A DNA stretch of 10,377 nt from Clostridia bacterium (GTDB taxonomy: Bacteria; Bacillota_A; Clostridia; Peptostreptococcales; Anaerovoracaceae). A program made the translations under genes and the position numbers. Within the stretch, counting starts at the first letter, position 1. Each line of letters starts with the position of its first letter. The stretch lies in contig JAKSSI010000030.1 of NCBI GenBank assembly GCA_024403175.1, positions 1 to 10,377 of the forward strand, read 5' to 3'. Below, in pieces: positions 1 to 10,108 of this stretch. The notes under the pieces were generated by a model that saw nothing but the letters and a program-made list of their open reading frames with translations, ran no database searches and had not been told where the DNA came from.

Positions 1-1260
1 AACAAGCTGATCTCTTAATGCTGTCATCTTGATGTACCAAGATGGCTTTGCATAGTAGATGAGCGGTGTATCGCATCTCCAACAGTGTGGATAGTTATGT
101 TCAAGCTTTTCCTTTTCGTAAAGCTTTCCTTCGTTTGCGAGCCACTTGATGATTTCTACATCAAGGCCTTCTTCCATGATGAAGTGACCAGCCCAAGGTG
201 TTGCTGTGTACTTACCTTCTTCGTCAACTGGGTTAACAACTGGAAGGTTATACTTAAGACCTGTGTTGTAGTCGTCTTCACCAAATGCAGGTGCTGTATG
301 AACAATACCAGTACCATCTTCAGCTGTTACGTAATCGTTGCATGTTACGATGAATGCATTGTTCTTTGTTGTATCAACCTGAACGAATGGCATAAGCTGT
401 TCGTACTTCTTGTATTCAAGATCCTTACCCTTCATTTCAGCAACAATCTTGTATTCGCCGTGCTTACCAAGAACCTTTTCTGCAAGGCTCTTTGCAACGT
501 AGTAGAACTTACCATCCTGTTCTGCCTTTACGTAGTCCATATCTGTGCCTACTGTAAGTGCAACGTTGGAAGCAAGAGTCCAAGCTGTTGTTGTCCAAGC
601 AAGGAAGTATGTGTTTTCTTCTTCAGTGCTCTTGAATGGAACAGTAAGAGTAATTACCTTAACCATCTTGTAACCCTGAGCTACTTCGTGGGAAGCAAGA
701 CCTGTTCCGCAACGTGGGCAGTATGGAAGAATCTTATGTCCTTCGTAGATAAGACCTGCTTTATAGAATTCCTTAAGAATCCACCAACCTGTTTCAATGT
801 AGTTGTTGTCGAGGGTAATATATGGATCGTCGAGATTGATGAGATAACCCATGCGGTGTGTCATCTTTCTCCACATTGCTTCGTAAGTGAATACAGAAGC
901 TTTACACTTTTCGTTAAATTCTTTAATACCGTACTTTTCGATATCCTGCTTGCCGTTAAAACCAAGCTGCTTTTCAACTTCAATTTCAACTGGAAGACCG
1001 TGAGTATCCCAACCAGCTTTTCTGTTTACCTTATAACCCTGCATTGTCTTATAACGACAGATAGAGTCCTTAAGAGTTCTAGCAATAACATGGTGAATAC
1101 CAGGCTTGCCGTTTGCTGTTGGAGGTCCTTCGTAGAATAAGAAGTTTGGCTGACCTTCGCGTGATGTTACGCATTTTCCAAGCATGTCAATTTCGTCCCA
1201 CTTGTCGGCCTGAGCAAGCTGGACGTCTGCTATTGGTAAATCTGATAAATTCTTATACAT
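1..1260 (-). CDS. ileS: Isoleucyl-tRNA synthetase, N-terminal part (runs off left edge)
   Basis: Charges tRNA-Ile with isoleucine in the cytoplasm. The 420 visible codons contain the class I synthetase start: residues 44-54 read EGPPTANGKPG, followed by the HIGH-equivalent GIHHV at about 54-58. Next come GWDTHGLPVEIEVEK (83-97) and the zinc-type PYCPRCGTGLASHEVA block (179-194). After these come a CP1 editing domain with WTTTAWTLASN and GTGIVHTAPAFGEDDY, and the HNYPHCWRCDTPL segment close to the left edge. The GIHH form of the signature and the eukaryote-like editing domain fit the IleS2 clade, members of which are known for low mupirocin sensitivity. The KMSKS loop and anticodon-binding domain lie outside the window. 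The ATG at 1260 is preceded by GAGGAAA at a good distance. It lies 37 bases after the PPTase-RecX stop, so the two are probably cotranscribed. Its codons are strongly biased (no in-frame TTA, CTA or TCA over about 370 codons), as expected of a highly expressed gene. Confidence 0.97.
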   Translation of the reverse strand, partial: MYKNLSDLPIADVQLAQADKWDEIDMLGKCVTSREGQPNFLFYEGPPTANGKPGIHHVIARTLKDSICRYKTMQGYKVNRKAGWDTHGLPVEIEVEKQLGFNGKQDIEKYGIKEFNEKCKASVFTYEAMWRKMTHRMGYLINLDDPYITLDNNYIETGWWILKEFYKAGLIYEGHKILPYCPRCGTGLASHEVAQGYKMVKVITLTVPFKSTEEENTYFLAWTTTAWTLASNVALTVGTDMDYVKAEQDGKFYYVAKSLAEKVLGKHGEYKIVAEMKGKDLEYKKYEQLMPFVQVDTTKNNAFIVTCNDYVTAEDGTGIVHTAPAFGEDDYNTGLKYNLPVVNPVDEEGKYTATPWAGHFIMEEGLDVEIIKWLANEGKLYEKEKLEHNYPHCWRCDTPLIYYAKPSWYIKMTALRDQLV

Positions 1261-1297: not shown

Positions 1298-2218
1298 CTA
1301 ACTTTTTCTTAACCTAGATAGTATATCATAAATTATAGTAGCTTCATACCCTAAACTTGACAGCTTTCGGCCTATTTTTGCCAAATCTTTTTCCGTCTCA
1401 GCCTTGTATTTTAAAGCTATTTCCATTGCCGCTTCTCTTGAGTTTTCCTTGTAGGAGGATGCAGCATCTTTTGCAAGCTCTTTTGAGAGACCTTTTTTCA
1501 TAAGTTCGTACTCAATTCGGCGCGGAGCCTTGCCCGAATTTGCTAATTTATCGGCCCAATTTTGAGCGTACAAAGCATCGTTTATGTACCCGTATTCAAG
1601 AAGTTTTTCGATGGCATAATCAATATCTTCATCCGGGTAAGTGCGTTCTTTTAGCTTATTTCTAAGCTCTGCTTCGCTGTAGGTTCTGGTATCTAAAAAG
1701 CCTGCTGCACAGTCCAAACAGCTTTGAATAAATGGCGCATCATATTCAACCCATTTAATGCTGTAATCTGGGTCGCCAGCTATACCGACAAAGAGTTTTT
1801 TATGGATAAAACTTTGAGTTATTCCATCATCAATTACAGAAAAAGATGAAAGCCCCATGCGAAGGCCCTCTTCTTTAAGCTTCATAAAGGCTTCTTTTCT
1901 AACCCAAATGGATAAAAATTCTTCTCTCCACTCGCTGCTGCCAGGGGCAAGAGCACTTAAATAATCTTGCTCAGATGGATGCAATTTCTTTGCAAGATTT
2001 GGCTTTACAACCCTTGAAAACTCTTCAATATCAACGCCTACAGGGTTTTCTGATATTGCACAGCACCAGTAGTTTTTTGTGTCTGAAATAGAAATAAATC
2101 CATCATCAATCTTTGGCGCACCGTTTACATGAATCAGTTTTTTGCCAAGTATTTCTTCAACAATTTGCTCGGATTTATAAGTTCTATATTTATTTTTTTC
2201 TAAAAAAAGGATATTCAT
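1298..2218 (-). CDS. Fused 4'-phosphopantetheinyl transferase - RecX protein
   Basis: One uninterrupted frame of 306 codons joins two unrelated families. Numbering is from the ATG at 2218. The N-terminal part, about 1-170, is an Sfp-type phosphopantetheinyl transferase, which moves phosphopantetheine from CoA onto carrier proteins. It shows GVDIE at 61-65 (metal ligands D63 and E65) and WVRKEAFMK at 105-113 (E109 and K113). The usual SH of the first CoA-binding motif is SD here (SISD, 43-46). The C-terminal part, about 175-306, is a complete RecX made of three-helix repeats: TYSEAELRNKLKER, then LLEYGYINDALYAQNWADKL, APRRIEYELMKKGL and a final KIGRKLSSLGY block. RecX proteins bind RecA filaments and control their activity. 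The frame opens 36 bases earlier with a TTG at 2254, preceded by AAGGGA. I prefer ATG because MNILFLEKN looks like a natural first strand and the TTG lies inside a good -35 box. The domain calls are firm; the start is about 60% sure. Confidence 0.9.
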   Translation of the reverse strand: MNILFLEKNKYRTYKSEQIVEEILGKKLIHVNGAPKIDDGFISISDTKNYWCCAISENPVGVDIEEFSRVVKPNLAKKLHPSEQDYLSALAPGSSEWREEFLSIWVRKEAFMKLKEEGLRMGLSSFSVIDDGITQSFIHKKLFVGIAGDPDYSIKWVEYDAPFIQSCLDCAAGFLDTRTYSEAELRNKLKERTYPDEDIDYAIEKLLEYGYINDALYAQNWADKLANSGKAPRRIEYELMKKGLSKELAKDAASSYKENSREAAMEIALKYKAETEKDLAKIGRKLSSLGYEATIIYDILSRLRKS

Positions 2219-2225
2219 AGTATAA

Positions 2226-2254
2226 AGTTTACCTTTTGCACGAAATAGTGTCAA
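2226..2254 (-). promoter_or_regulatory. Candidate promoter of the PPTase-recX gene
   Basis: On the minus strand a consensus TTGACA (2254-2249) is followed after 17 bases by TAAACT (2231-2226), four of six matches to TATAAT. Transcription would begin near 2219, at or next to the ATG at 2218, giving a leaderless or almost leaderless mRNA. The competing reading is that the TTG of TTGACA is itself the start codon, served by AAGGGA upstream. In that case the promoter lies further back. Confidence 0.45.
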
Positions 2255-2328: not shown

Positions 2329-2619
2329 ATGGCTTACGAATCAAAATTTAAATCCGCTGCAACTGACGCTCTCTTTGAAGCTATTCTTAAACTGGAAAAT
2401 GTAGATGAGTGTTACAGATTTTTTGACGACCTTATGACTATTAAAGAAATTCAGTCTGTAGCCCAGAGATGGGAGGTTGCAACACTGCTTGCCGAAGGAA
2501 ACACATATCAGGAAATCGAAAAGAAAACAAAAGCTTCAACTGCTACAATTAGCCGTATTAACAAGTGTATGCAATATGGCGCAGACGGCTATAAAATCGT
2601 TTTAGACAGACTTAAATAA
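2329..2619 (+). CDS. TrpR-like transcriptional repressor, YerC/YecD family
   Basis: A 96-residue all-helical DNA-binding protein of the TrpR superfamily, matching the YerC/YecD group found in Firmicutes. An N-terminal helical part (about 1-38, with LFEAILKLENVDECYRFFDD) provides the dimer interface. The helix-turn-helix lies at about 45-79: QRWEVATLLAEGNTYQEIEKKT leads into the recognition helix STATISRIN. Its length is typical of the family. In E. coli TrpR the ligand is tryptophan, but this group is not known to bind it and its regulon is poorly defined. The ATG has GGAGGA five bases upstream. The gene is monocistronic, read away from the PPTase-recX gene and closed by a strong terminator. 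The palindrome in its own promoter suggests that it represses itself and perhaps its divergent neighbour. Confidence 0.93.
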   Translation: MAYESKFKSAATDALFEAILKLENVDECYRFFDDLMTIKEIQSVAQRWEVATLLAEGNTYQEIEKKTKASTATISRINKCMQYGADGYKIVLDRLK

Positions 2620-3704: not shown

Positions 3705-4448
3705 TTAAACATCAATAATTGTAGGCCTGTTTGTATCGTCTAAATAACGATCTTTTAAAGATAATCTTTTTACTGCCTTAAAGCAAATAAAGAACATTAT
3801 TGCTATGAAGACAATAAACACCATATTCCCGATGTACTCAGAAATAGTGGCTATATAATCATAAGCGCCATGTATGATTGCAGGGAACACAACGCTGATA
3901 ATTCTAAGTGTTTTGGAGCTACTGTAATTGTCTCTTAATTCTTGCTTTTTTGCAACCCCATACCAGATGCCCATAAACACACCAAAGCTAGCGTGTCCTG
4001 GAACCGCAGTAAATGCTCTTACAATGGCTGTGGAAAAACCGTATGAGAAAACATACTTAATGTTTTCCCACAGGGCAAAGCCTAAAGAAACTGTAACGGC
4101 ATAAACTACTGCATCAAATTGGCAGTTAAAATCAGGATCTTTCCAGGAACCGATTTTAAGCATTATGTACTTTGCCAATTCTTCGGCAGGTCCAACGATA
4201 ATGAAGAACATTATCACGTCATAGCGATTGCTATACTGATTAACCGTAAGGTCCAAGATATTAAAGCCTATAGTTTCTAAAATCAAGGCAATATATGTGG
4301 ACGCAATGCCAAGCGCTAACAGTTTAATTATAAGGTGTGGCGGCTCTTTTTCCAAGCGGTCAATTTTATAAATATACCTTAAAAGTACAATTGCCGGGAT
4401 AACAGCCGATGCCACCAATATGTACATGTAATTTGTAAGTAAACCCAT
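3705..4448 (-). CDS. prsW: PrsW-family intramembrane metalloprotease
   Basis: A 247-residue polytopic membrane protein with about seven hydrophobic segments. It carries the PrsW signature set in order: EELAK at 89-93, FALWEN with E128, PGHASFGV with H152, and HGAYDY with H193. The two Glu and two His residues are the expected metal and catalytic groups of this fold, related to the CAAX protease group. B. subtilis PrsW makes the first cut in the anti-sigma factor RsiW after envelope stress. No anti-sigma or sigma gene is present here, so the substrate is open. The start ATG shares its A with the ctpA stop (TAATG), and no strong ribosome binding site is close, so translation is probably coupled to ctpA. 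The C-terminal tail (about 228-247) is charged and probably cytoplasmic. Confidence 0.9.
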   Translation of the reverse strand: MGLLTNYMYILVASAVIPAIVLLRYIYKIDRLEKEPPHLIIKLLALGIASTYIALILETIGFNILDLTVNQYSNRYDVIMFFIIVGPAEELAKYIMLKIGSWKDPDFNCQFDAVVYAVTVSLGFALWENIKYVFSYGFSTAIVRAFTAVPGHASFGVFMGIWYGVAKKQELRDNYSSSKTLRIISVVFPAIIHGAYDYIATISEYIGNMVFIVFIAIMFFICFKAVKRLSLKDRYLDDTNRPTIIDV

Positions 4449-5647
4449 TATTTTAGTAATTCAATAGCCTTAAGCAGCTGTGTATCCTCTTCGATGAAAC
4501 CCATAGGGTCTGGAGCAGGCAATTCTACTATATAGTCTGGAGTTACTCCAACTTTGTGAATTGGGTCGCCAGAAGGACTATAGTACTGAGTTCTTGTAAG
4601 TTTAATTACGCTTCCATCGGAAAGTTCTCTGGCTTCCTGAATGATGCCCTTTCCGTAAGTTTTTGTGCCAACAATCTTTGCTTCATTGTTGGACTGAATA
4701 CCTACAGCAAGTATCTCAGAAGCAGAAGCTGTATACTCATTTACTAAAAGTACATAAGGCAGCTTAGTTCTGCCATCAGTTGTTGTATAGTAAGTTCTTT
4801 TACCGTCTTGAGCCTCTGCATATACCACAGTGCCCTTATTCATAAGCATATCAGCTACTTCTACGGCTTGGTCTACAAGGCCGCCGCCGTTGTTTCTTAA
4901 GTCGATAACAAGGCCTTCAACACCCATATCTTCCATATCGGATAAAGCCTTTTCAAATTCCTTTGCTGTACCGGATCCGAAAGCTGCAATTTCAATGTAT
5001 CCGAGGTTTACATCCATATCTACATTGGATTTGTCGAGCTTAACACTGCTAACGGTAATTTCGCTTATAATTGCTCTGGTGATAGTTACAACGTATTCCT
5101 TACCTGCTCTTTGGTAGGTAAGTTCTACGTCTGTGCCCTTAGGACCACGGATCTTATCTCTAATAACAGTTGAATCCTGTCCTTTTATGTCTTCTCCGTT
5201 GACTTTTGTGATAATATCACCGGACTTTATGCCCGCTTTATCAGCTGGACTGTCAAGGTAAACTGAATCTGCACATACGTATCCATCATCTCCTATATAG
5301 AATGCCATACCTATGCCACCAAATTCAAGTGCAACTTCTTCCAAAAAAGCGTCCGCTTTATTGTAGGAAACATACTCAGAATACTTATCTCCTAAGGCTT
5401 CGAACATTCCCTTGTATGCGCCTTCCAATAATTGGGATTCTTCTACAGGCTGATAATAGTAAGATTCCACAAAATTCATAAGCGTATCAAGTTTGCCGTA
5501 TCTTTCTAAATATCCGTTATAGACTTCAGCATCAGCCGATGTAAGAAGCTTTGCACCCCCAACGCCTAAAGATGTTGCCAGTATCATTCCGCCTGCGCCG
5601 AGCAATACTGAAAAAATCATCAAAATGGCGACAATTCTCTTATTCAT
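4448..5647 (-). CDS. ctpA: C-terminal processing serine protease, S41 family, with PDZ domain
   Basis: A 399-residue secreted or membrane-anchored protease. Residues 6-28 form an N-terminal hydrophobic signal anchor. A helical segment (about 50-100) leads to a PDZ domain (about 105-190, with EFGGIGMAF and SPADKAGIKSGDIITKVNG) that reads substrate C termini. The S41 protease domain follows, with GYIEI, LVIDLRNNGGG (246-256), TASASEI (306-312) and YGKG (331-334). S308 and K333 form the catalytic Ser-Lys dyad; their 25-residue spacing equals that of the E. coli Prc dyad, so the enzyme should be active. The ATG overlaps the recJ stop by one base and AAGGG lies upstream inside recJ. Such proteases mature or degrade extracytoplasmic proteins. 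In this operon the M23 hydrolase is a plausible substrate, which is inference. Confidence 0.95.
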   Translation of the reverse strand: MNKRIVAILMIFSVLLGAGGMILATSLGVGGAKLLTSADAEVYNGYLERYGKLDTLMNFVESYYYQPVEESQLLEGAYKGMFEALGDKYSEYVSYNKADAFLEEVALEFGGIGMAFYIGDDGYVCADSVYLDSPADKAGIKSGDIITKVNGEDIKGQDSTVIRDKIRGPKGTDVELTYQRAGKEYVVTITRAIISEITVSSVKLDKSNVDMDVNLGYIEIAAFGSGTAKEFEKALSDMEDMGVEGLVIDLRNNGGGLVDQAVEVADMLMNKGTVVYAEAQDGKRTYYTTTDGRTKLPYVLLVNEYTASASEILAVGIQSNNEAKIVGTKTYGKGIIQEARELSDGSVIKLTRTQYYSPSGDPIHKVGVTPDYIVELPAPDPMGFIEEDTQLLKAIELLK

Positions 5648-7365
5648 TACTTACTAACCCTTATATCCTTAACCTTTATCTGGAGCTTTCTTTCGCCCCT
5701 ATATTCGTTGATTTCAAGCTCTCCGGCCACGTCGACCCTCTGGCCACTGAACACTAAATCTCTAAAATCAGCTGCGCTTTGGAACAGTATGCAGCTAATG
5801 CCAATACCGTCTGCAGCAACTATGTTAAATCTCATATGCTGTCCATCTGAACCCATAGTAAAGGCATTGCTAATATGAGCACCCCTTACACAGAACAGTG
5901 GAACAGGATTTGCCTCGCCATAAGGCTCTAATTTTTGCAGTTTTTCAGCAAACTCAAGAGTCTTTTCGTTTTCGGCAAGTTCTTTTTCTATAACAAGGCA
6001 CTCTTCAAGCACATCGGCGTTAAGTTCCACCTGAGCTTTTACAAGTTCTTGCATTTTCTGTCTAAATTCATCGAGGCATTCAGCCTTAAGGCTAAATCCG
6101 CAGGCACCGGCATGTCCACCGAATCTAAGGAACACATCTCCGCAGTTTTCAAACAGTTCATGAAGATTAATTCCCGGAACAGATCTACCTGTACCCTTTA
6201 AGCTGCCATCTTCAGCAGGTGTTACAATGCAAACCGGTTTATGGAAACGCTCTTTTAAATTACCAGCTACAATTCCTGCCACGCCCTCATGGGCACCAGG
6301 CGCGAAAATAACTGGGGCGAATTCACCGCAGTCCTCAGTTTCAAGAGCTCGTTCGCAAATTCTATATGTTTCTTCCTGTACGGATTTTCTTTTGATGTTG
6401 GTTCTTACTGTTTCGTCAGCCAAAGCATCAAGCTGAGACTTGCTTTCAAAACCAGCTAAAAGTTCAACACCTAAAGCTGCAGAATCCATTCTACCCAAAG
6501 CGTTAAGATTTGGTGCAAGAATAAATGCTACGTTGGAAGAAGTGATTATCTTATCGTTTATTTCAAGTCTTTCGAAAAGGCTTGTAAGCCCTATACGGCT
6601 ACGTCTATTTATGCGGTCGAGGCCGTATTTTACAAGACTTCTGTTTTCATCTAAAAGAGGAACAACATCTGCTACAGTTGAGATAGCAACTAAGTCTAAA
6701 AGATTGTTCAGTCTGCTCTTTGTTAAGGTTAAATCGCCCTGAGCCTCCAAAATTCTTTTAACACCCTGAGCTAATTTAAATGCTACGCCGCAGCCAGAAA
6801 GTTCTGCAAAAGGATAATTTGATTCAGCTCTTTTCGGATTAACAAAAAGGCAATCAGGATCTTGTCCGTCTCTTAATCTATGGTGGTCTGTAATAATTAC
6901 TTCCATTCCCAAAGACTTAGCATATTCAACTTCGGCAGGCGAAGTGCTTCCGCAGTCTACGGTAATGAGTAAATCTACATTGTTTGCCTTAATCTTATCG
7001 ATAGCAGCGTTATTAAGGCCATAACCATCTGTAAAACGGCTTGGCACATAATAGCAAACATTTTCCGTTAAGTATCTAATTACTGTGTATAAAAGAGTTG
7101 TGGATGTAACGCCGTCTGCGTCGTAGTCACCGTAAACGCAAATACGCTTACCAAGTTTTGCTGTGTTAATAAGAGTCTGAGCAGCGTCTCTTAAGTCTGG
7201 CAGAAGGAATGGGTCGTAAGTAACCTTTGGTGTTTCGGAGAGGAAATCTTCGATTTTGCTCTCTTCTACCCCTCTATCCCTAATTATCTGAACAATAGAA
7301 GCAGGGACCCCAAAGCGTCCCTGTTCCATGTTATATCTATTCTGTTTTATTATCCACTTTGCCAT
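5647..7365 (-). CDS. recJ: Single-stranded-DNA-specific 5'-3' exonuclease RecJ
   Basis: A 572-residue DHH-family nuclease that degrades single-stranded DNA from the 5' end in recombination and repair. The motifs run in family order: DYDADG (80-85), DCG (137-139), DHH (160-162), SGCGVAFKLAQ (190-200), NALGRM (288-293), then GTGRS (391-395) and RFGGHAGACGF (414-424) in the DHHA1 part, and a C-terminal OB-like segment (about 485-572). All expected metal ligands are present. The length is near the usual 560-580. The ATG is two bases after the stop of the M23 gene, and the stop overlaps ctpA as TAATG, so it is built tightly into an operon of envelope genes. Confidence 0.97.
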   Translation of the reverse strand: MAKWIIKQNRYNMEQGRFGVPASIVQIIRDRGVEESKIEDFLSETPKVTYDPFLLPDLRDAAQTLINTAKLGKRICVYGDYDADGVTSTTLLYTVIRYLTENVCYYVPSRFTDGYGLNNAAIDKIKANNVDLLITVDCGSTSPAEVEYAKSLGMEVIITDHHRLRDGQDPDCLFVNPKRAESNYPFAELSGCGVAFKLAQGVKRILEAQGDLTLTKSRLNNLLDLVAISTVADVVPLLDENRSLVKYGLDRINRRSRIGLTSLFERLEINDKIITSSNVAFILAPNLNALGRMDSAALGVELLAGFESKSQLDALADETVRTNIKRKSVQEETYRICERALETEDCGEFAPVIFAPGAHEGVAGIVAGNLKERFHKPVCIVTPAEDGSLKGTGRSVPGINLHELFENCGDVFLRFGGHAGACGFSLKAECLDEFRQKMQELVKAQVELNADVLEECLVIEKELAENEKTLEFAEKLQKLEPYGEANPVPLFCVRGAHISNAFTMGSDGQHMRFNIVAADGIGISCILFQSAADFRDLVFSGQRVDVAGELEINEYRGERKLQIKVKDIRVSK

Positions 7366-7367
7366 GA

Positions 7368-8534
7368 CTAATAAACACCTGCTTTTACATAGTCAAGAGG
7401 ATTTACATACTGACCATTTACACGAACTTCAAAGTGAAGGTGCGGACCAGTAGACATACCTGTAGAACCTACCTTTGCGATAGTCTGACCTCTTACTACG
7501 ATATCTCCAGCAGATACCAGCAGCTTGGATGAATGTGCATATAAAGTAACAATTCCGCCGCCGTGGTCTATCATTACATAATAACCATAACCGCCAGCAT
7601 TATATGCCGCCTTAATAACCTTACCGCTGTTTGCTGCAAGTATATCTGTACCCATGCCAGCACCAATATCGATACCGGTATGAAGCTTATATTTCTTTAA
7701 TACTGGATGGCGTCTGTTACCAAATGGAGATGTTACTCTTGTACTGGATTTTGCAGGCCAGCACATAGTACCACCAGTGTAGGCTTCCTTGCTTTGCAGA
7801 GCAAGAATTTCAGCAACCAGTTTTTCAGCTTCCTTGTTTAGTTCATCGATTTGAGCCTCGAGCATGGAGTTGTTGTTTTCAACATTCTTTTTCTGCTGAG
7901 CAAGCTTTGCTTCACTTTCATCAAGACCTGCTTTGTAAGCTGTAGCCTCTTCCTGCTGCGCAATAAGTTTTTCCTTAAGCTGCGCAAGTTCTTCTTTCTT
8001 CTGAACAACTACTTCGTAAGCTGTCTGCATATCTTCAAGAAGATCTTCGTCTGAGCTATAAATCTTCTTAGACATTTCCATGTTTGTAAGGAAATCGCTC
8101 ATGCTCTTAGAACCTAAAAGAACAGAGAGTATTCCTATGCTTCCGTTCTTGTACATAGCACGAAGTCTGTCGTTTAAGTTAGAATTGTGAGCATCGATTT
8201 CAGCCTGAAGTGCTTCAAGTTCTGCTAAGGTTTCAACAATCTTTGCCTTTGTATTGTTAATTTCCTTGTTAAGCGCATTGATTTGCTTTTGCGCAGAGTA
8301 AATCTTACTTTCGATATCTTTAATCTGCTTCTTTAAAGCTGCAGCTGTACTCTGGCCAGATTTAAGAGCCTTTTCAAGAGCTGCCAAATCCGCATTGATA
8401 TCGGAAAGTTCGTTCTTTTTATTGGTTATATCATCAGCATAGGAAACTGCAGGCACGCTAAAAGTAAACAGCATAACAAGTACCATGCTGAGCACTAAAA
8501 TCTTTTTAATTGTCCCCTTAAAAATATTTTTCAT
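7368..8534 (-). CDS. Secreted M23 murein hydrolase with N-terminal coiled coil (EnvC/PcsB-like FtsEX partner)
   Basis: A 388-residue secreted protein. A signal peptide spans about 1-33, with probable cleavage after SYA. A long coiled coil follows (about 36-125 and 160-250). Between its arms is RLRAMYKNGSIGILSVLLGSKSMSDF (123-148), a hinge seen in EnvC/PcsB/CwlO-type proteins. The C-terminal LytM/M23 domain (about 262-385) has HTGID (H285, D289), YAH (H334) and GPHLHFE (H365, H367), so all zinc and catalytic groups are present, unlike E. coli EnvC, whose LytM domain is degenerate. It should therefore cut peptide bridges in peptidoglycan itself. It lies 10 bases after ftsX, with AGGGGAA before the ATG. 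The coiled coil is the part that contacts the FtsX extracellular domain in known systems, keeping the enzyme off until FtsE hydrolyses ATP. Confidence 0.93.
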   Translation of the reverse strand: MKNIFKGTIKKILVLSMVLVMLFTFSVPAVSYADDITNKKNELSDINADLAALEKALKSGQSTAAALKKQIKDIESKIYSAQKQINALNKEINNTKAKIVETLAELEALQAEIDAHNSNLNDRLRAMYKNGSIGILSVLLGSKSMSDFLTNMEMSKKIYSSDEDLLEDMQTAYEVVVQKKEELAQLKEKLIAQQEEATAYKAGLDESEAKLAQQKKNVENNNSMLEAQIDELNKEAEKLVAEILALQSKEAYTGGTMCWPAKSSTRVTSPFGNRRHPVLKKYKLHTGIDIGAGMGTDILAANSGKVIKAAYNAGGYGYYVMIDHGGGIVTLYAHSSKLLVSAGDIVVRGQTIAKVGSTGMSTGPHLHFEVRVNGQYVNPLDYVKAGVY

Positions 8535-8544
8535 TATTCCCCTA

Positions 8545-9438
8545 TTATGCCTTAAGGAACTTTCTCATAGATACGATAGAACCAAAGGCACCAATGCTGA
8601 CCCCAAGAGCCACAAAGATTGCAGCGAAGTTCTTGATTACGAAAATTGGGTCAACAAAACCAGATGAAAACAGTGCCACTGCCTGCAAAGAGAACATATC
8701 GTGTAATTCATAATATGCAAGAGCAGATATGCCTAAAGCCAAAGCTGCAGAAATGATGCCGATAAACACACCTTCCAAAAGCAGAGGGCCTCTTATGAAC
8801 CAGTTTGTAGCACCAACGTACTGCATGATTTCGATTTCTTCGCGTCTTGCAAGTACGGTAATTTTAATTGTGTTGCTTACAACTACAACAGATACAACTA
8901 CAAGGAAAAGAATAATTACAAGTGCACCCTTTTGAATTGCATTTGCAACATTGATAACCTTGTTAACTTCATCTGCATAAAATCTAATGTCTTCAACTCC
9001 AACAAGTTTGGAGCAATATGCTTTAACTGAAGAGCCATATTCAAGAGCAGAAAGCTTAACTCTTAAAGAATTTGGCAGAGGGTTTTCGGAAAGAGAATCT
9101 AAAAGATAAGCGCTGTCGCCCCATCTAACTTTAAACTCCTCCATAGCCTTTTCTTTTGAAATCAGTTCAACAGAAGCAACGCCCTCTTTCTTTTCAATCT
9201 GACTCTTTAAGAGGTTTATCTGCTGATCTGTTGTTTCATCCAAAAGGAAAACTTCAACAGTATCAAACTGGGTTTTAACAGTTTCAGTAATGTAGTTGAT
9301 ATTGATTGTAAGGGAAAGTACAACGGCTAAGATAAGAAGCATAGCTGTAATTGAGAAAATTGAAGCTACACTCATGCCCTTGTTTCTAATGCTTTGCTTT
9401 ACAGCCTGCTTAATCGAATAAATTAAATCTTTAAACAT
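8545..9438 (-). CDS. ftsX: Cell division ABC transporter, permease subunit FtsX
   Basis: A 297-residue membrane protein of the FtsX/MacB fold. It has one N-terminal transmembrane segment (about 24-46), an extracellular domain (about 50-165, including FDTVEVFLLD and PNSLRVKL) and three more transmembrane segments (about 170-190, 218-242 and 268-290). The cytoplasmic loop after segment 2 holds ARREEIEIMQYVGATNWFIRGP (197-218), the FtsX motif that contacts FtsE. With FtsE it transmits ATP hydrolysis to an extracellular hydrolase rather than exporting a substrate. The ATG overlaps the end of ftsE by eight bases, and its GGAGG is formed by the last codons of ftsE. Confidence 0.96.
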   Translation of the reverse strand: MFKDLIYSIKQAVKQSIRNKGMSVASIFSITAMLLILAVVLSLTININYITETVKTQFDTVEVFLLDETTDQQINLLKSQIEKKEGVASVELISKEKAMEEFKVRWGDSAYLLDSLSENPLPNSLRVKLSALEYGSSVKAYCSKLVGVEDIRFYADEVNKVINVANAIQKGALVIILFLVVVSVVVVSNTIKITVLARREEIEIMQYVGATNWFIRGPLLLEGVFIGIISAALALGISALAYYELHDMFSLQAVALFSSGFVDPIFVIKNFAAIFVALGVSIGAFGSIVSMRKFLKA

Positions 9439-10108
9439 GGCTGCCTCCTAAACGGCGGTCGGCAATGATGCTTCCGTCGTCAATGGCAATAACACGCTTG
9501 CCCATACGTTCAACGATTTCGGTGGCATGAGTAACCATAACAACTGTTGTGCCTCTGCGGTTAATCATGTTCATAAGTTCCATAATTTCTTTTGCAGTTT
9601 CTTTGTCTAAGTTTCCTGTAGGTTCGTCTGCAATAAGAATCTTTGGGTTGTTGATAATTGCTCTAGCTATTGCAACTCTTTGCTGTTCGCCGCCAGAAAG
9701 CTCAGATGGGAATCTGTCTTTTGCATCAGAAATGCCCATTACTTCAAGCATCGCTGGCACCTGTCTTGCAATAGTTCTTGGTGTAGCATGAACCACTTCC
9801 ATAGCAAATGCCACATTTTCATAAACAGTCTTGTTCTGAAGAAGTCTGAAATCCTGGAAAACCATGCCAACTTGTCTTCTAAGCTTTGGAATTTCCCTGT
9901 TAGACATCTTGCGAAGAGATTTGCCGTTTATAACAATCTCACCCTCATCTGGAGTAATCTCCTTAAGCATAAGCTTAATAAAAGTGGACTTACCTGCACC
10001 AGATGGACCCACTACAAAAACAAAATCACCTTCGTCTATGTGTAAAGTTGCATTTTGCAATGCAACAGTATCTCCGTATTTTTTTGTTACGTTTTTAAAA
10101 TCGATCAC
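9431..10108 (-). CDS. ftsE: Cell division ABC transporter, ATPase subunit FtsE
   Basis: A 225-residue ABC ATPase of the FtsE type. Walker A GPSGAGKS spans 34-41, and the Q loop is at Q85 within GMVFQDFRLL, a stretch typical of FtsE. The signature LSGGE is at 137-141, Walker B ILIADE at 157-162, and the H-loop His at 194. All catalytic residues are present. The start is a GTG at 10108 preceded by AGGGGTG; MIDFKNVTKKYG is the usual FtsE opening. It is the first gene of the operon, directly behind a good promoter. Confidence 0.97.
   Translation of the reverse strand: MIDFKNVTKKYGDTVALQNATLHIDEGDFVFVVGPSGAGKSTFIKLMLKEITPDEGEIVINGKSLRKMSNREIPKLRRQVGMVFQDFRLLQNKTVYENVAFAMEVVHATPRTIARQVPAMLEVMGISDAKDRFPSELSGGEQQRVAIARAIINNPKILIADEPTGNLDKETAKEIMELMNMINRRGTTVVMVTHATEIVERMGKRVIAIDDGSIIADRRLGGSHV

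Follow-up and report, generated by a model that had tools for sequence, protein, structure and literature searches.

A single uninterrupted reading frame on the minus strand of the DNA stretch analysed here (10,377 nucleotides, hereafter the window) encodes a phosphopantetheinyl transferase (PPTase) joined to a complete RecX. We consider it probable that the product is a bifunctional chain descended from two neighbouring genes, in which an active housekeeping PPTase and the only RecX of the cell operate independently of each other. The N-terminal half would take 4'-phosphopantetheine from CoA and attach it to the acyl carrier protein (ACP) of the cell, its presumed substrate; this half, usually the genome's only PPTase, would fill the housekeeping job of AcpS. 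The C-terminal half, the genome's only RecX, would bind RecA and modulate its filaments, by analogy with what the available text of two sources describes for RecX in E. coli and B. subtilis (PMC9252578, PMC3527212). Both activities would most likely be exercised independently on one chain, in fixed 1:1 amounts.

The fusion gene occupies positions 1298..2218 (minus strand; 306 aa, with the stop codon at 1298-1300 included). Its listed open reading frame begins at a TTG at 2254; the ATG at 2218 stands where most homologues start and is backed by them as the start codon. Residues 1-162 (1733..2218, minus strand) form an Sfp-type PPTase half, with two pseudo-symmetric halves within one chain, and residues 163-306 (1301..1732, minus strand) form the RecX half, with the RecX fold and three tandem three-helix modules. 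Pfam searches with the 306-aa protein place ACPS (PF01648) at residues 59-137 (E 1.1e-11, 45.1 bits versus a cut-off of 25), RecX_HTH1 (PF21982) at residues 167-206 (E 1e-11, 45.1 bits, cut-off 26) and RecX_HTH2 (PF02631) at residues 213-252 (E 1.3e-10, 41.7 bits, cut-off 26). The third RecX module has no Pfam match in the window protein; it is formed by the last three of nine helices in the predicted model, and RecX_HTH3 is above cut-off in the relatives P0152 and P0167. The best NCBIfam RecX equivalog is NF001058 (E 4.2e-22), whose 79 bits compare with a cut-off of 194, such cut-offs being fitted to whole proteins of particular lineages. Both folds are present in the predicted model of the fusion (mean pLDDT 95.7), which has no stretch with pLDDT <70 between the domains. 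The earlier note had described one PPTase-RecX chain without a stop, and the uninterrupted frame, together with domain matches above curated cut-offs, confirms it. Its claim of a full RecX set holds as well, both sides of the fusion being complete. It had further placed the junction at about residues 165-180; the fusion point itself stands, but it lies nearer residues 160-166.

The same architecture recurs widely among homologues. A search with the protein itself returned 53 proteins including the query, at 37-62% identity across nearly full length, and PF01648 plus at least one RecX domain is listed for 49 of the other 52, which makes a product of chance or of misassembly very unlikely. An alignment search yielded 85 clusters at E <=1e-20 (query included), 81 of which have PF01648 together with one or more RecX domains in a precomputed table, the exceptions being P0030, P0046, P0170 and P0171. 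Among the 81, P0172 is an odd chimera of 223 residues on a 1337-base contig, matching a PPTase piece, the first RecX module and an aminoglycoside adenylyltransferase-like domain; it is possibly a misassembly. Across alignment A1, mean pairwise identity is 53% for the PPTase half and 45% for the RecX half.

A more distant form of the fusion, clade B, came to light when the 417-residue fusion from genome G194 served as query; both domains are present in P0054 to P0059 and in P0061, and P0060 has the PPTase only. Clade B fusions at L025 (1489-2742, minus strand) and L071 (1474-2628, minus strand) carry the usual SVSHSG motif and a longer linker. P0061 is 27% identical to P0054 and may represent a third fusion form.

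When named genome contigs were scanned, four of five loci were fusions, titled as Clostridia, Clostridiales, Bacillota or Firmicutes metagenome genomes, with horse faeces and goat jejunum among their named sources; the fifth, from Streptomyces, matched over the PPTase part only. Within the family of G001, a stop-free fusion occurs in 21 of 197 sampled genomes, 19 of clade A (the centre G001 included) and 2 of clade B (G194 and G223). Fusion pieces that end at contig ends are found in G288 and G351; in G327, a clade-A-type RecX piece adjoins a contig end, near which there is a TAG. In the class of G004 (391 genomes, at most five candidates scored per genome) only the centre G004 passes E 1e-36, and for the order (198 genomes) the stop-free fusions among those listed are G001 (the centre), G143 and G194; the family, class and order sets are overlapping samples, and these counts are not frequencies for whole groups. 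One genome, G255, holds two different stop-free fusions, on contigs C2 and C205, reflecting either a duplicate or a mixed assembly. The concentration of the fusion in one lineage makes this unusual architecture usable as a lineage marker, as had been proposed.

AcpS is the usual housekeeping holo-ACP synthase elsewhere, and carrier-protein activation is needed for fatty acid synthesis. We examined 22 fused genomes, metagenome assemblies among them and all of unstated completeness, where an absence is not proof. No PPTase besides a fusion is present in 21 of them, PF01648 being matched once in 20 and twice in G255, both times in a fusion. The exception, G318, has an extra 208-residue PPTase on contig C6, together with a 2497-residue open frame that holds carrier domains and is presumably a peptide synthetase with its own activator. 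The PF01648 search does pick up AcpS-sized genes: across 148 genomes of the order, many of the listed matches lie in frames of 120-150 residues. As for a separate RecX, a search of 20 of the 22 fused genomes for RecX_HTH2 matched nothing but fusions, and a whole-protein profile gave no second RecX match at E 1e-12 in G143 and G194. A carrier protein (PF00550) is found in 21 of the 22, without a match in G001, and RecA is above cut-off in 20, the two others being G002 and G344.

Since completeness is not stated, each single absence is weak, and the argument lies in the agreement among genomes. This tally of separate recX, sfp and acpS genes, proposed in the earlier note as a check, thus gives no separate recX in 22 fused genomes and no other PPTase in 21 of 22. 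These counts, together with the carrier protein found in 21 genomes, make it most likely that the PPTase half stands in for AcpS as housekeeping holo-ACP synthase and that the genome has no RecX other than the RecX half. Unfused relatives are similar: 23 of 24 examined genomes with the gene pair have a single PF01648 match, located near recX (the single match of G140 is below the curated cut-off, and G185 has two matches). Two further unfused genomes in which the PPTase adjoins recX by coordinates, G046 and G070, each give two matches to PF01648; not every unfused genome, then, has just one PPTase. Because genomes with the unfused pair mostly have a single match, we infer that the replacement of AcpS probably came before the fusion.

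The residues expected of an active PPTase are retained. D63-I64-E65 (codons at 2024..2032, minus strand), aligned with Sfp, provide the first and second metal-binding positions of the triad, and K108-E109-A-F-M-K113 (1880..1897, minus strand) is the KE..K catalytic motif, so that the window protein has the metal triad and the catalytic lysine (D63, E65, E109 and K113). According to the available part of PMC2148441, human PPTase requires its counterparts of D63, E109 and K113 for catalysis. K108, E109 and K113 are found in 51 of 51 rows of A1; of the rows that cover the site, 49 of 50 have D63 and 50 of 51 have E65, and P0052 deviates, probably because of a wrong start. In a comparison of 75 rows, all 46 fused proteins have an Asp-Glu-Glu triad, and 24 of 29 unfused neighbours (L024, L028-L037 and L040-L050, for example) have Asp-Gln-Glu, which the accessible text of PMC4103896 lists for just 10 of 373 archaeal, bacterial and cyanobacterial group II PPTases. 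Active enzymes with either triad are known; residues one and three are essential, and the second is dispensable in those tested (PMC4103896, same text). Between L052 and L053, the closest pair of sequences, dN/dS amounts to 0.13-0.15 for the PPTase half and to 0.08-0.12 for the RecX half; of the 9 pairs compared, only this one is quoted, because most others have dS >1 or no usable value (YN00 returned no value for several, and one pair has no dS). The conserved residues suggest that the PPTase half is an active enzyme.

The unfused relatives suggest where the fusion came from. Both genes were recognised in 29 unfused loci, and in all 29 recX follows downstream of the PPTase gene, on the same strand. 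The gap is <100 nt in 19 of these 29, with a 4-nt overlap in L028, L032 and L050, as measured on the longest reading frame, where the choice of start may shift it. One gene separates the pair in about 10 of the 29; three such genes were scanned, two encoding EamA transporters and one a metallo-beta-lactamase fold. The unfused loci are those with the highest profile scores, and the sample favours neighbours, since five of them (L069, L070, L073, L075 and L076) were taken for having both genes score in one stretch. Among 27 unfused loci from the order sample, 24 have the PPTase within the fetched stretch; it lies just outside in L043 (G197) and on another contig in L048 (G026), and for L039 no PF01648 match was found anywhere in the genome (G069). 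The view that PPTase and RecX have no established link therefore needs qualifying, as the two genes are frequent neighbours in this lineage.

In trees of 75 rows, for which 20 of the 51 rows of A1 were combined with locus proteins, clade A forms a single branch (support 100/99 for the PPTase half, 99/96 for the RecX half and 100/99 for the joint alignment), and so is clade B (100/99, 100/98 and 100/100, respectively). The union of the two has 85/78 in the joint tree, and the unfused L069 groups beside clade B (95/75) in the PPTase tree; clades A and B may thus be two separate fusions. The trees omit the duplicates L022, L057 and L065 and the contig-edge pieces L072 and L077, with P0054 and P0057 replacing L025 and L071; the careful trees also omit P0061, because of its long branch, L039, L074 and rows missing one half, such as L043 and L048. 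P0030 and P0053 were excluded from A1 itself. On the evidence of gene order, we read the fusion as the descendant of a neighbouring gene pair. Loss of the stop codon between two close genes is the likely path, and the fusion could arise easily because the genes were already in a tight same-strand pair.

The surroundings of the gene were also inspected. A divergent neighbour outside the fusion (2329..2619, plus strand) encodes a Trp-repressor-family protein (PF01371, E 1.2e-32), which lies on the strand opposite to the fusion in both the window and L001; PF01371 genes recur near a PPTase or a fusion in the window, L001 (4300-4593), L024, L029 and L036. The downstream neighbour, likewise outside the fusion (1..1260, minus strand), is a class I aminoacyl-tRNA synthetase (PF00133, E 1.6e-58), probably IleS, and also adjoins the fusion in L001 and L002. 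The minus-strand order in the window is ftsE, ftsX, an M23 peptidase with a PcsB-type coiled coil, recJ, an S41 peptidase, PrsW, a URO-D-like protein, the fusion and the tRNA synthetase. The block from ftsE to PrsW (3705-10108), upstream of the fusion, is kept in parts of the lineage: in L004, ftsX, the M23 peptidase, recJ and the S41 peptidase lead directly into the fusion with a 4-nt overlap, L003 retains recJ, the S41 peptidase and PrsW, and L001 retains PrsW and the synthetase. That the fusion lies close to recJ in some members of the lineage may be coincidental or may reflect a theme of recombination. No SOS box with <=2 mismatches to the consensus was found in the window, where 2.2 would be expected by chance. 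Promoter-like sites were not used, because 4 were found against 3.5 expected.

Could the two halves be functionally coupled? CoA, apo-ACP or holo-ACP on the PPTase half would then alter the action of RecX on RecA, or RecA would alter the PPTase, linking lipid supply and recombination. The fusion has been retained across strongly diverged homologues (37-62% identity), it may have formed separately in clades A and B, and its model is free of any stretch under pLDDT 70 between the domains, all of which would suit such coupling. The genes were also neighbours before the fusion, but a tight gene pair can fuse without coupling, and another gene intervenes in about 10 unfused loci. The window, moreover, is without an SOS-type site, and no result of this analysis shows interaction; we regard coupling as unlikely. 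A more specific form, in which RecX is gated by whether CoA or carrier protein sits in the PPTase site, would let RecA control sense the state of fatty acid synthesis, with the H-to-D site at position 46 as part of the sensor; it too strikes us as improbable. Coupling of RecA control to the CoA or carrier-protein state, as the earlier note envisaged, is possible and appealing, with no result favouring it over independence. The other suggestion of the note, that RecX may be modified or carried by the PPTase, found no support either: no carrier-type DSL motif was seen on reading alignment A1.

Position 46 (codon at 2081..2083, minus strand) bears on whether the PPTase half still uses CoA in the usual manner. 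Aligned to Sfp, the window protein has D46 where relatives have a histidine in contact with the CoA 3'-phosphate. D46 is aligned with the histidine of the Sfp ISHSG motif, which we take to be H90 in Sfp numbering, in agreement with the alignment. Judging from the motif, the human equivalent would be H111, which binds the CoA 3'-phosphate and whose H111A substitution lowers kcat/Km for acetyl-CoA from 578 to 64 (PMC2148441, available part). Of the 40 clade-A rows, 34 have D and 6 have H (P0050, L059, L063, L066, L067 and L068); H is found in 6 of 6 clade-B rows and in 26 of 29 unfused rows, of which two have D and one N. Since L066-L068 are the first branches inside clade A in the joint tree, the histidine was probably present when the fusion formed, and with three more H rows within the rest of the clade, the change to D would have come more than once or reverted. 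The segment ahead of the motif is also shortened, with medians of 44 residues for clade A, 59 for clade B and 67 for unfused rows. K28 and K31 of Sfp hold the same 3'-phosphate (PMC2148441, available part); going by the lengths, their equivalents would fall in the missing N-terminal part. Every covering row of A1 has K at position 8, K (once R) at position 10 and R or K at position 12, and these residues may replace the lost phosphate contacts.

With D at position 46 in most of the clade and a shortened N-terminal half, activity with CoA is not assured, and the remodelled site predicts a changed CoA affinity or donor choice. The PPTase half might accordingly have turned to another donor, for example dephospho-CoA, or have drifted towards weak CoA binding. 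The contrast between clade A and unfused rows in both residue and length, along with the loss of efficiency in the human H111A enzyme, would fit such a change. It is nevertheless doubtful in our judgement, as the catalytic residues are conserved, the closest pair indicates purifying selection, the fusion is the sole PPTase in most fused genomes and the basic residues at positions 8, 10 and 12 may make up for the lost contacts.

Less probable still is that the chain is not used whole, an internal start or proteolysis giving a separate PPTase and RecX. An ATG or GTG with a Shine-Dalgarno-like stretch lies near the junction in 6 of 23 distinct fusions (L003, L025, L053, L056, L058 and L059), but the other 17, the window's included, have no such site in the scanned region. 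Finally, that the missing stop codon is an assembly or sequencing error, for which separate genes in related genomes had been named as the telltale sign, is rejected: such pairs do occur, but the stop-free fused form is present in 81 of 85 clusters and 21 of 197 family genomes, the fused rows form one well-supported branch in both halves, and recurrence across dozens of assemblies makes the separate genes look like the ancestral order, not an error.

Taken together, a lineage of uncultured gut Clostridia appears to be without AcpS and to depend on one chain, probably with independent halves, for both carrier-protein activation and RecA restraint. It offers a case of a gene pair turning into a fusion, with unfused forms persisting in relatives, and a practical way to test whether unrelated activities affect one another when they share a chain. 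It also calls for caution in annotation: source names for the fusions mostly cover one half ('RecX family transcriptional regulator' or '4'-phosphopantetheinyl transferase superfamily protein'), so that fused genomes can seem to be without a holo-ACP synthase or without RecX. Our search for RecX with phosphopantetheinyl transferase, acpS or fusions returned no report of a PPTase-RecX fusion in the literature covered (for fusions, the top 10 of 77 hits), which leaves out most subscription papers and preprints; papers mentioning RecX and phosphopantetheinyl transferase treat them separately in their available text.

Among known systems, the closest to the PPTase half are the Sfp-type (group II) enzymes, such as B. 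subtilis Sfp (1qr0, 4mrt), which share its fold, its D-x-E and KE..K motifs and its two-half layout. The fusion differs from them in its shortened N-terminal half, in the D at the CoA histidine in most of clade A and in its C-terminal RecX. AcpS (group I) is a protein of about 120 residues (PMC5605751) that forms a trimer (PMC2148441, both as far as available), unlike the two-half chain of the fusion PPTase, which is nearer to Sfp. Synechocystis Sppt is a single PPTase serving fatty acid synthesis (available parts of PMC4103896 and PMC5605751), and the fusion is likewise apparently the cell's only PPTase. RecX, solved in 3e3v, 3dfg, 3c1d and 3d5l, is normally a separate protein, of 264 residues in B. 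subtilis and <180 in Proteobacteria (PMC3527212, available text), whereas here it is the C-terminal half of a PPTase chain. The type I fatty acid synthases of yeast and fungi likewise hold a PPTase within a larger chain (PMC5605751, available part), but there its partner is its own carrier-protein megasynthase, while in the fusion the partner is a recombination regulator.
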